The notes under the pieces are model-generated. The model had not been told where the DNA came from, made no database searches, and saw only the letters and a list, made by a program, of their open reading frames with translations. Below, piece after piece: positions 53,965 through 58,082 of a DNA stretch of 64,000 nt. The first letter of the stretch is position 1, and every line of letters begins with the position of its first letter. The position numbers and the translations under genes were made by a program. This DNA comes from Streptomyces sp. NBC_01460 (GTDB lineage Bacteria; Actinomycetota; Actinomycetes; Streptomycetales; Streptomycetaceae), in assembly GCF_036227405.1 (NCBI RefSeq), contig NZ_CP109473.1, positions 5,518,001-5,582,000 of the forward strand, written 5' to 3'.

Positions 53965-53988
53965 TTAGTCACACTCTTTTGTGTAATA
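53965..53988 (+). promoter_or_regulatory. AT-rich palindrome in the encapsulin promoter region
   Basis: ACAC-TCTTTT-GTGT inverted repeat within an AT-rich island; TAATAG (53984-53989) could be a -10 element. It lies about 65 bases upstream of the shell gene start. The binding protein is unknown. Confidence 0.5.
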
Positions 53989-54054: not shown

Positions 54055-55461
54055 ATGTCCGTTGGTGAAGAGGTTCGCGACACGCAGCCGCCGCAGCAGC
54101 AGAGTCTCGGCACAGCGGCTGCGCGGAACCTCGCGACGACCACCAAGTCCGCCCCGCAGATGCAGGAGATCACCTCACGGTGGCTGCTGCGCATGCTGCC
54201 GTGGGTACAGGTGCAGGGCGGTGCCTACCGGGTGAACCGCCGGCTGAGCTACTCGGTCGGGGACGGCAGGGTCACCTTCGTCCAGACCGGTGACCGGGTC
54301 ACGGTCATCCCCGCCGAGCTCGGCGAGCTCCCCGCCCTGCGCGACTTCGGTGACGAGGAGGTACTGGCCGAGCTGGCGCGCAGGTGCGAACAGCGCGACG
54401 TCGCGGCGGGCGAGGTGCTCGTCGCGGCCGGTGACGCGGCGGACCGCGTCCATCTGCTGGCCCACGGCAAGGTCGAGAAGATCGGCACCGGGCCGTACGG
54501 TGACGAGACCGTGCTCGGAGTCCTCGCGGACGGCGCCTACTTCGGCGACCACGTCCTGATCGACGGGGACGCGAACTGGGAGTACACGGCCCGCGCGGTG
54601 ACCGCCTGCACGCTGCTGACCCTGCGCCGGTCGGACGTGCTCAACCTCGCGGCCCGCGCGGACTCGCTCCGCGACCACCTCGCCGGGCTGCTCGCCATCC
54701 CCCACCAGCGGACCAACCGCTACGGCGAGGCGGAGATCGACCTCTCGGCGGGCCACGTGGGGGAGAGCGTCGTCCCGCACACCTTCGTCGACTACGAGTC
54801 GGCGCCCCGCGAGTACGAACTGAGCGTCGCCCAGACCGTGCTGAAGGTCCACAGCAGGGTGTCCGACCTCTACAACCAGCCGATGAACCAGACCGAGCAG
54901 CAGTTGCGGCTCACGGTCGAGGCGCTGCGCGAGCGCCAGGAGCACGAGCTCATCAACAACCGGGAGTTCGGCCTGCTCAACAACTGCGACTACGGGCAGC
55001 GGCTCCAGCCCCACGACGGGGCGCCCGGACCGGACGACATGGACGAGCTCCTGTCGCGGCGGCGCGGATCGAAGCTGTTCCTCGCCCATCCGCGGGCCAT
55101 CGCCGCGTTCGGCCGTGAGTGCAACAGGCGGGGCCTGGTGCCGGAGACCATCGAGGTCGGGGGACACCACGTGTCCTCGTGGCGCGGTGTGCCGATCTTC
55201 CCGTGCGACAAGATCCCCGTCACCGACGCCCGTACCACCTCCATCATCTGCATGAGGACCGGTGAGGAGGACCAGGGAGTCATCGGGCTCCAGCAGAGCG
55301 GCATCCCGGACGAGATCGAACCGAGCCTCTCGGTCCGCTTCATGGGCATCGACGAGCAGGCGATCATCTCGTACCTCGTGACGGCGTACTACTCCGCCGC
55401 CGTCCTGGTGCCCGACGCGCTCGGTGTCCTGGAGAACGTGGAGGTGAGCCGCTGGCGGTGA
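54055..55461 (+). CDS. Family 2B encapsulin shell protein with cyclic-nucleotide-binding domain (EshA type)
   Basis: A 468-residue HK97-fold nanocompartment shell protein. Residues 1-35 are a flexible N-terminus; shell segments lie at 36-95 and 215-468 ([45 protein letters not shown] type family stretch; [37 protein letters not shown]). A Crp-type cNMP-binding domain is inserted at about 95-215. Its phosphate-binding cassette reads YFGDHVLID...YTARAVTA, so the usual FGE is FGD and the Arg context differs. Known Streptomyces relatives are EshA proteins. The prenyl synthase gene follows 89 bases later. Confidence 0.93.
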
Positions 55462-55469
55462 CGCTCCCC

Positions 55470-55496
55470 GGGCCCGGGCGGCGACCGCCCGGGCCC
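55470..55496 (+). terminator. Hairpin between shell gene and prenyl synthase gene
   Basis: Perfect 12-bp stem GGGCCCGGGCGG / CCGCCCGGGCCC with a CGA loop, eight bases after the shell stop. Either an attenuator that lowers cargo transcription or an mRNA stabiliser. Confidence 0.7.
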
Positions 55497-55550
55497 CGGC
55501 AGGGCCGAGGCCGCGACCAAGGTGCCCCGAGGCACCCGGAAGGAGTGACC

Positions 55551-56600
55551 GTGACCATGACCAGTTCGGATGCCGCGATGGAGGGGCACAAGGCCGCCAC
55601 GCTGCTGGAACACACGCGCAGCGCCGTCGACCCGCACCTTCGCGCCGCCGTCGAAACGCTGCCCGGGGCGATACGCCGGGTCGCCATGTACCACTTCGGC
55701 TGGCAGAACGCCGACGGCACACCGGCGTCCGGGCAGGCCGGCAAGGCCATCAGACCGGCACTCGTCCTGGCCGCCGCCCGTGCCCTGGGGGGCGACCCGG
55801 AGGCGGCGATGCGGGCGGCCGTCGCCGTCGAGCTCGCGCACAACTTCACCCTGCTCCACGACGACGTCATCGACGAGGACACCACGCGGCGGCACCGGCC
55901 CACGGCCTGGGCGGTGTTCGGGGTGCCGGACGCCGTGATCACCGGGGACGCCATGTCCTCCCTCGCCCTGAGGCTGCTGGCCGACGACCCGCACCCCGCG
56001 TCCGCACAGGCCGCGGTCCGGCTCTCCACCTGCGTCATCGAGCTCTGCGCCGGCCAGCAGGCCGACTGCGCCCTGGAGGAGCGCGGCCCCGAGGACGTCA
56101 CCCTGGACGAGTGCCTCGCCATGGCCATGGCCAAGACGGGCGCCCTGCTCGGCTGCGCCTGCGCCCTGGGCGCGCTCTACGCGGGGGCGGGGGAGCAGGA
56201 GGTCCGGGCGATGGACGGCTTCGGCCGGGAGGCGGGCCTCGCCTTCCAGCTCATCGACGACCTGATCGGCATCTGGGGGGACACGGCCCGCACGGGCAAG
56301 CCGGTCGGGGCGGACCTGACCGCTCACAAGAAGTCCCTTCCGGTGGTCGCGGCGCTGACCTCGGACACACCGGCCGCCACCGAGCTCGCCGCCCTCTACC
56401 GGGGTGCCCTGAACACCTCGGGGGAGGTGGGGAGTGCGGCCGACGCGGTCGACCGGGCCGGTGGCCGGGACTGGGCGCAGACCGCCGCTGCGGACCGGAT
56501 GGCCCGGGCCGTCCACCACCTGTCCCGTGCCGTGCCCGCGCCGGACGCCGCCGGAGACCTGCTGGCACTGGCCGAGTTCGTCACCCGAAGAACCCACTGA
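55551..56600 (+). CDS. All-trans polyprenyl diphosphate synthase, predicted encapsulin cargo
   Basis: A 349-residue prenyl-elongating synthase. First Asp-rich motif D104-D105-xx-D108 (LLHDDVIDED) and second motif D236-D237-xx-G240 (QLIDDLIG) are present; KAIRPALVL is the substrate Lys/Arg site. Product length cannot be read; GPP, FPP or GGPP are all possible. AAGGAG lies five bases before GTG 55551; ATG 55557 is the alternative. In Family 2B encapsulin loci this enzyme class is the predicted cargo. The N-terminus before the fold is only about 30 residues, with no long disordered targeting tail visible. Confidence 0.92.
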   Translation: MTMTSSDAAMEGHKAATLLEHTRSAVDPHLRAAVETLPGAIRRVAMYHFGWQNADGTPASGQAGKAIRPALVLAAARALGGDPEAAMRAAVAVELAHNFTLLHDDVIDEDTTRRHRPTAWAVFGVPDAVITGDAMSSLALRLLADDPHPASAQAAVRLSTCVIELCAGQQADCALEERGPEDVTLDECLAMAMAKTGALLGCACALGALYAGAGEQEVRAMDGFGREAGLAFQLIDDLIGIWGDTARTGKPVGADLTAHKKSLPVVAALTSDTPAATELAALYRGALNTSGEVGSAADAVDRAGGRDWAQTAAADRMARAVHHLSRAVPAPDAAGDLLALAEFVTRRTH

Positions 56601-56707
56601 GGCGGGCCGCCCGTGGCCGCCGCCGTCCCCAACTCTAGTATTCCGTGCGTTGGTCGGGAGGGGCATCCTTCCCTCATCACCACGGGACGAAGGGGGCGGG
56701 GCCGGCC

Positions 56708-57304
56708 ATGGGCGTACGCGTTCGGCAGGCGGACGGGCGGGACAGGGACCTGGTCGTACGGATCCTGGAGGAGGCGTTCCACGACGATCCGGTGAGCAGC
56801 TGGGTCTTCCCGGACGAGGAGCACCGGCGCGCGGTGCACGGGAAGTTCCTCGGTGTCTTCGCCGACGTCACGCTGGAAGAGGGCCGGATCGATCTGCTGG
56901 AGGACGGTACGGCGACCGCCCTCTGGCTCTCCGTGCCGGCGGGTGCGCCCGAGGAGGAGGACGACACGCCGGCCCTCATGCGGGAGACGGCGGACCCCGG
57001 CAACGAGCGGTGCGAGCTGGTGGGGAGGCTGACGGGCGCCGTCCACCCCCACGACCGTGCGCACGCGTACCTGTTGATGATCGGCGTCTCCCCGGAGCGG
57101 CAGGGCGAGGGCCTGGGCGATGCGCTGATCAGAGGCGTCCTGGAACGGTGCGACCGTGAAGGGACCCCCGCCTATCTGGAGGCGAGCAGCGCGCGCAGCC
57201 GTGCGCTCTACGAACGCCTCGGATTCACCTTCACGGGACGGACGGTCGACCTTCCCGACGGCCCGCCGATGTGGCCCATGTGGCGTGAGCCCCAGGGCGG
57301 ATGA
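56708..57304 (+). CDS. GNAT-family N-acetyltransferase
   Basis: A 198-residue GNAT. Motif A YLLMIGVSPERQGEGLGDALIRG and motif B AYLEASSARSRALYERLGF are clear. Substrate unknown. ATG 56708 starts at the family N-terminus VRVRQADGRD. It follows the prenyl synthase by 107 bases on the same strand; a link to the encapsulin is possible but not shown. Confidence 0.88.
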   Translation: MGVRVRQADGRDRDLVVRILEEAFHDDPVSSWVFPDEEHRRAVHGKFLGVFADVTLEEGRIDLLEDGTATALWLSVPAGAPEEEDDTPALMRETADPGNERCELVGRLTGAVHPHDRAHAYLLMIGVSPERQGEGLGDALIRGVLERCDREGTPAYLEASSARSRALYERLGFTFTGRTVDLPDGPPMWPMWREPQGG

Positions 57305-57413
57305 GCGGGACCCGGCGGACGGGGCCGCGGAAGAGGAGGATGCCGCAGGGCAGGGCCGCGGAAGGGGAGGGTGCCGCCGGGCGGGTCCCGGGGCACGGCT
57401 ACAGTCCCTGCTC

Positions 57414-58082
57414 ATGACAGATGAGTCGTGGGCAGGCTGGTACCGGGACCGTCGTGGTTCCGAGGCAGTCATCCTCACCACGGACGGACAGCAGCTCCGC
57501 ATCCGCGTCCGGGGCACGGACTTCGAGGGCGAGAGCTTCGACGGCCTGGGCCCGGTGGCGGGCGCACCGGTCCAGGAGGGTCTGTTCGACCTGGTCGACG
57601 GTGTGCTCGACGACTGCGTACTGGAGTGGGACCTCCCGCTGCCGGTGCTCGTGTCCGGCACGGTCCGGCAGGCCACCCTCGGCTGTCTGCTCTCCCTGCG
57701 CAGGGAGGACCCGGATCTGTATCTCGCCCTCCATCTGGACGGGGCGGTGTACGAGTCGAACCGTGCCGAGGGCGACTTCGCCGCCGCGCTGGCCACGATC
57801 CAGCGGATCCTGCCGCCGGACATGCATCTGCAGACCTGCATAGCCTGCGCCTTCTCCGACTACTTCCCCGCCCCCGTCCGGGGCCTGTCCGGTGGGCTCG
57901 CCTGCTTCCGCGGGGCCAAGGACGCCTACCGTGACGTGGAGGGCGGCGACGACGTCGCCGGCCTGTGGGACCGGCGCACCGGATTCGTCCAGGAGATCTG
58001 GAGCTGCCGGGAGTTCGAGCCGCGCCCGGCGCACGGCGCCGGCACCGGGCATCGCGGCGCCTTCCCCCTGGAGCTCGCCTGA
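57414..58082 (+). CDS. DUF6304-family protein
   Basis: A 222-residue soluble protein that I recognise as the Streptomyces DUF6304 family (WAGWYRDRRGSEAVILTTDG start; CIACAFSDYFPAPVRGLSGGLACFRG; WSCREFEPRP). The CxxC and surrounding acidic/aromatic residues are conserved in the family as I recall, but no function is known. ATG 57414. Co-directional with the GNAT gene, 109 bases apart. Confidence 0.78.
   Translation: MTDESWAGWYRDRRGSEAVILTTDGQQLRIRVRGTDFEGESFDGLGPVAGAPVQEGLFDLVDGVLDDCVLEWDLPLPVLVSGTVRQATLGCLLSLRREDPDLYLALHLDGAVYESNRAEGDFAAALATIQRILPPDMHLQTCIACAFSDYFPAPVRGLSGGLACFRGAKDAYRDVEGGDDVAGLWDRRTGFVQEIWSCREFEPRPAHGAGTGHRGAFPLELA

Follow-up and report, generated by a model that had tools for sequence, protein, structure and literature searches.

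The window, by which we mean the entire 64,000-nucleotide stretch of Streptomyces sp. NBC_01460 DNA analyzed here, carries a gene for a family 2B encapsulin shell protein followed by a gene for a prenyl diphosphate synthase (Table 1). The two genes are co-directional and lie 89 bases apart with no intervening gene, as an earlier sequence-only reading of this DNA had described.

Table 1. Features of the shell and synthase locus in the window, and of a second shell locus in the same genome.
Feature	Position	Strand	Details
Conserved 23-bp element TTAGTCACACTCTTTTGTGTAAT, candidate promoter/operator	53965..53987	+	90 bp before shell ATG
Family 2B encapsulin shell protein	54055..55461	+	468 aa; NF041163 773.2 bits, cut-off 400
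Shell N-arm motif	54103..54147	+	LGTAAAR/LGTSAAR in relatives' N-termini
Inserted cyclic-nucleotide-binding-type domain of shell	54394..54657	+	PF00027 cNMP_binding 60.8 bits, cut-off 27.5; residues 114-201
HK97-type SrpI-like domain	54703..55449	+	PF19307 459 bits; residues 217-465
Prenyl (polyprenyl) diphosphate synthase, predicted cargo	55551..56600	+	349 aa, or from ATG 55557; NF041169 493.2 bits; PF00348 195 bits
First Asp-rich motif DDVID, Phe at -5 (F99)	55860..55874	+	Residues 104-108; invariant in 73/73
Second Asp-rich motif, D236 D237	56256..56261	+	Identical in 73/73 aligned
GNAT acetyltransferase ORF	56645..57304	+	PF00583; downstream match in 35/80 loci
DUF6304 ORF, true start probably inside	57156..58082	+	PF19822 168 bits, residues 90-234; downstream match in 60/80 loci
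Second locus: family 2B shell, tagged terpene cyclase, geranyl-diphosphate methyltransferase	L003:7314-11062 (G000:C1, about 8.10 Mb)		

We found the shell gene to be full length, with all 450 positions of the family 2B model (NF041163, encap_f2b) covered. The protein combines an HK97-type SrpI-like domain, recognized by PF19307 as well as by NF041163, with an inserted CNMP-binding-type domain (PF00027), which upholds its earlier assignment to family 2B. The nearest solved chains (9bhu, 9bje and 9bix) cover almost the entire protein, with 67.9% identity over 455 amino acids to the closest of them, the S. griseus shell (sequence of PDB 9bhu), and by analogy with these relatives the window's shell protein would be expected to self-assemble into an icosahedral particle.

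The downstream protein is a complete prenyl diphosphate synthase of the cargo class that the literature predicts, as had been proposed. It scores above the cut-off of 450 bits of the curated model for this class (NF041169, f2_encap_cargo4), matches polyprenyl_synt (PF00348), and is encoded beside the shell gene on the same strand. Both Asp-rich motifs, previously judged intact, are so by conservation as well, since D104, D105, D108 and F99 of the first and both Asp residues of the second are identical in all 73 aligned proteins (the window's included). A Phe at position -5 together with a DDxxD motif without insertion is the pattern of archaeal-type GGPP synthases, and the second-nearest solved relative, 1wy0, is a GGPP synthase; the score against the GGPP synthase model IdsB (NF045549) is 359.8 bits, below its cut-off of 475. 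Our guess is that the product is FPP or GGPP. In the literature searched, we saw no biochemically characterized member of this synthase type and found no experiment on the window's shell and synthase pair.

The open frame of the synthase (55458-56600) overlaps the shell stop codon, and a start at GTG 55458 would have implied translational coupling and a disordered tail. We rejected this longer start because the frame upstream of the synthase start is unconserved in close relatives, where it differs and is closed by stops (1 and 5 codons ahead of the matching start in L012 and L015, respectively). The start is thus likely GTG 55551 or ATG 55557, behind GGAAGGAG.

We estimated how general this arrangement is with the synteny survey that the sequence-only reading had suggested. 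Among 121 Streptomyces genomes, 118 carry a family 2B shell above the cut-off and 90 a synthase of this type, nearly always beside a shell gene: 87 of the 90 lie directly downstream of a shell, on the same strand, among the matches listed (median gap of 192 bases between model matches). As for the other three, G013 has its shell, the synthase of G111 is truncated at the start of its contig, and no shell is present at the G075 locus. A shell gene thus immediately precedes the synthase gene in 88 of the 89 cases that could be resolved. Of 60 synthase relatives with scores below the cut-off, none has a shell within 20 kb among the matches listed, a comparison that is partly circular since curators set the NF041169 cut-off for encapsulin-linked members. 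Furthermore, among the 80 loci (GTDB genomes) whose shells are closest to the window's, 75 have the synthase directly downstream on the same strand, which argues against a chance pairing; at two loci of this set (L032 and L064) the synthase is cut by a contig end.

Widespread shells lacking this neighbor had been named as an observation that would speak against the pairing. Such shells do exist, with 63 of 150 listed Streptomyces shells having no above-cut-off synthase listed downstream (some of these sit at contig ends), but close to the window's shell they are few, at only 4 of the 79 nearest assessable loci. All 40 synthase-linked shells fall on one side of a 100/100 branch (67-row tree), and all 18 synthase-less shells among the 30 of the 150 listed that were included in the tree fall in another shell clade.

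The four full-length shells without a synthase match (L041, L052, L053 and L059) do not group together in the tree but are dispersed among shells that are synthase-linked. L041 has a 12-residue synthase match that is not significant (E = 2.5), 1.6 kb of downstream sequence was examined for L052, and no synthase above the cut-off occurs elsewhere in the L041, L053 and L059 genomes. L030 ends 111 bases past the shell, with the apparent first synthase codons visible. The reverse loss is found in L132 (1541-1850), which has no shell gene but retains the synthase together with a version of the upstream element carrying 5 mismatches. Four loci without a synthase and one without a shell indicate that the partnership is strong but not obligatory, and these losses are too few to show whether the shell or the synthase is the more dependent partner. 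Genes for a GNAT acetyltransferase and a DUF6304 protein are frequent further neighbors downstream of the pair, the latter also at L041, L053 and L059, all without a synthase.

At 57 of the 80 related loci (exact in 18), the 23-bp upstream element occurs with at most 5 of 23 mismatches, on the same strand and 88-137 bases before the shell match, a count made without a shuffle control; it is absent at this threshold from the other 23. When up to 3 mismatches are allowed, the 8.8-Mb genome has a single occurrence of an overlapping 22-mer (control, 0). At the 5-mismatch threshold the element is likewise missing from the cyclase-linked shell loci tried (L003, L171, L172 and L173) and from the synthase-linked L131, and a standard promoter and terminator scan returned nothing. 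Among related genes, the eshB promoter of S. coelicolor is reported to be up-regulated in development (PMC3878966) and the eshA-mib operon of S. venezuelae to be activated by BldC (PMC6428758).

A nucleotide-responsive shell had also been proposed. In a cyclic-nucleotide pocket, Arg is the canonical residue of the phosphate-binding cassette. The CNMP-type domain of the window's shell aligns to the domains of cGMP-dependent kinase and MlotiK1. In place of this Arg it has Ala in the alignment with 5dyk and Trp in that with 3co2, a structure that itself shows Trp at this position; a canonical pocket was not found in either alignment. PMC12407261, citing a preprint, states that the corresponding domain of a characterized 2B shell binds no cyclic nucleotide and places the domain above the two-fold pore. 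Together, the substituted Arg position and this statement do not support a nucleotide response, though the shell may still be gated by another ligand.

Cargo synthases of this class are described as having 50-100 disordered N-terminal residues (PMC8346489), an extension that we did not find in the window's synthase, which has about 14-16 residues before its folded core. From residue 16 onward it aligns with the crystallized synthase 3nf2, whose closer kin in the window's genome (L005) is not beside a shell, and is matched by NF041169, whose 334 positions do not call for an extension. Short tails are common: by automated start choice, the conserved helix is preceded by no more than 20 residues in 60 of 77 synthases (the window's, 74 from the 80 loci, L131 and L133), and the median is 14. 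Some of these starts are misjudged, for example L084 and six scored as 1 for which the next candidates give 14-16. Long tails occur in some relatives (L058, L070 and L082). In L070, a very long Pro/Gly/Ser/Ala-rich open frame precedes the synthase core, upstream of 2475.

Terpene-cyclase cargo proteins carry GPTGLGTSAAR-like tags (PMC8346489). We rejected the presence of such a tag in the synthase, since the best place for each of three tags was no better than in shuffled sequences (1889, 966 and 1840 of 2000 shuffles reached the observed score). With so few residues before the core and no GLGT tag, loading, if it occurs, would proceed via the short N-terminal stretch or the enzyme surface.

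Sequences resembling the tag are found in the shell itself, whose N-arm reads SLGT[AS]-. The motif is LGTAAAR in 55 of 84 distinct shell N-termini and LGTSAAR, letter for letter as in the cyclase tag, in 18, and the N-arm is the best place for all three tags in both shells of the genome. In the window's shell, 143, 380 and 38 of 2000 shuffles reached the observed scores, and in the second shell 19, 83 and 6. Given this modest signal against shuffled shells, mimicry of the N-arm by the cyclase tag is a lead with modest support. In a family 2A shell, N-arms interlace with neighboring subunits (PMC8049743), and the family 2A N-terminus has been placed outside the capsid (PMC8346489), which speaks against an N-arm binding site for interior cargo. 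In the literature that we searched, we came upon no mention of this resemblance. The pattern GLGT-x-AAR occurs at 5 places in the genome; the two tagged cyclases account for 2 of these, and 3 lie elsewhere (control, 1). An extension of the tag to cysteine-desulfurase cargo was rejected: the single above-cut-off match among 198 genomes (L175) has another, repeated motif in its first 330 residues and no such tag.

The absence of a terpene cyclase near the pair, noted previously, held as far as tested, with no match to a geosmin-type cyclase model in the window and none among the 8 ORFs around the pair. Some 2.5 Mb away, a locus for a terpene cyclase and a geranyl-diphosphate methyltransferase includes a further family 2B shell gene (L003:9650-11062), whose product shares 79.7% identity with the window's shell over 454 amino acids. 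This shell gene is followed by those for the cyclase (NF041167, 503 bits, cut-off 400), which carries the tag GPAGLGTSAARL, and the methyltransferase (NF041943, 515 bits, cut-off 400). The geosmin synthase of the same genome ends in GPTGFGTSAARV at its C-terminus. The S. griseus shell to which PDB 9bhu is identical in 469 of 469 aligned residues, and which we take to be EshA, is encoded beside genes for a methyltransferase and a cyclase, the latter with a weaker tag form, GPHGLGTAGLR. The L003 cyclase is only about 37% identical to this cyclase, and its product is therefore uncertain. The name EshA derives from the eshA-mib operon of S. venezuelae (PMC6428758).

The second shell is placed among synthase-linked rather than cyclase-linked shells in the 67-row tree, and forcing it together with seven cyclase-linked shells cost 100 log-likelihood units (p-AU 1.25e-5, 28-row tree), with the constrained group having been chosen once the first tree was known and the branch being long in the larger tree. 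The second shell thus looks, from these phylogenies, like one that changed its cargo. At least 10 further protein clusters share 83-96% identity with it, and below 83% follow shells at 78-82%, which may be of the synthase-linked type. Public sources already name relatives of the second shell as family 2B encapsulin shells. Geosmin synthases have GPTG[LF]GTSAA-like C-terminal tags at 30 of 32 loci by a loose pattern (L090, L135, L136 and L142-L170), these being mostly the best-scoring ones; many lower-scoring ones end before the tag part of the profile. A geosmin synthase gene lies directly after a shell in G085, G043 and G051.

Our combined findings point to a family 2B encapsulin operon of the polyprenyl-transferase type with one shell gene, in which the shell would enclose the adjoining prenyl diphosphate synthase, a reading to which we assign a probability of roughly 0.68. 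The data show the families of both proteins, their intact catalytic motifs, the conservation of the adjacency and the clade that the shells have in common. Assembly, encapsulation, product and purpose are what we infer here: the shell protein would form a small 60-subunit icosahedral shell, as in solved relatives (PMC12407261), and this shell would enclose the neighboring synthase, with IPP and an allylic diphosphate entering, and the product, probably FPP or GGPP, leaving, via shell pores, of which the large two-fold ones would be overhung by the outward CNMP-type domains. The missing tag and near lack of a tail would also suit a synthase working outside the shell, the two genes being co-regulated in one pathway and the real cargo being tagged cyclases that are encoded elsewhere and use the prenyl diphosphate. 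Tagged cyclases do lie away from the locus in the same genome (the L003 cyclase and the geosmin synthase), and one of them is the partner of a shell that belongs to the synthase-linked clade. The L041 genome yielded a single family 2B shell, which is of the window's type and without a synthase, and it has a geosmin synthase carrying GTPTGLGTSAFR. We nonetheless consider this arrangement unlikely, since it leaves unexplained why the synthase type is beside a shell in 88 of 89 cases, and since L059 keeps its shell in a genome where no full-length match to geosmin synthase was found.

Less probable again is that the neighbors stay together only because they share a promoter and the genome rearranges slowly, the two proteins being physically unconnected. 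A single conserved upstream element precedes the pair and single losses of either partner do occur, yet the adjacency is kept across the genus while GNAT, questin-oxidase-like and FAD oxidase neighbors come and go, and among the shells in the tree one clade alone carries it. It is similarly improbable that the synthase-linked (EshB-type) shell is a general terpenoid compartment, in which tagged cyclases would be loaded in trans by imitation of the N-arm (LGTSAAR) and the tagless synthase would be a co-cargo or an external supplier. Chain building and cyclization, such as geosmin synthesis, would then share one shell with their genes megabases apart. Loci that have naturally lost one partner or the other, together with the nearly tailless synthase and the shell with an apparent change of cargo, make the loading question directly testable.

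Several known systems resemble the window's pair. The S. coelicolor eshB gene (SCO5249; PMC3878966) is a paralogue of eshA and probably encodes the window's shell type, an orthology that we infer. The S. griseus shell of 9bhu, encoded beside 2-MIB-type genes, shares with the window's shell a nearly identical N-arm besides the sequence identity given above, but it neighbors a terpene cyclase and a methyltransferase and lies in the other shell clade. Two-component shells, such as Enc1/Enc2 of S. lydicus (PMC12407261), belong to the same shell family, whereas the window's locus has a single shell gene. We rejected a two-component shell here since the second shell gene of the genome is 2.5 Mb away, beyond the 10-kb criterion of that paper. 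The closest likeness is to the family 2B polyprenyl-transferase operon, 900 of which were counted in 2021, 888 of them in Actinobacteria (PMC8346489). The window shares with it the CNMP-inserted shell, the prenyl synthase directly downstream and the actinobacterial host, and differs in the very short tail of its synthase, compared to the long disordered tails of the survey's synthases. The pair in the window thus belongs to an already published system, of which it is a new instance and not a new type.
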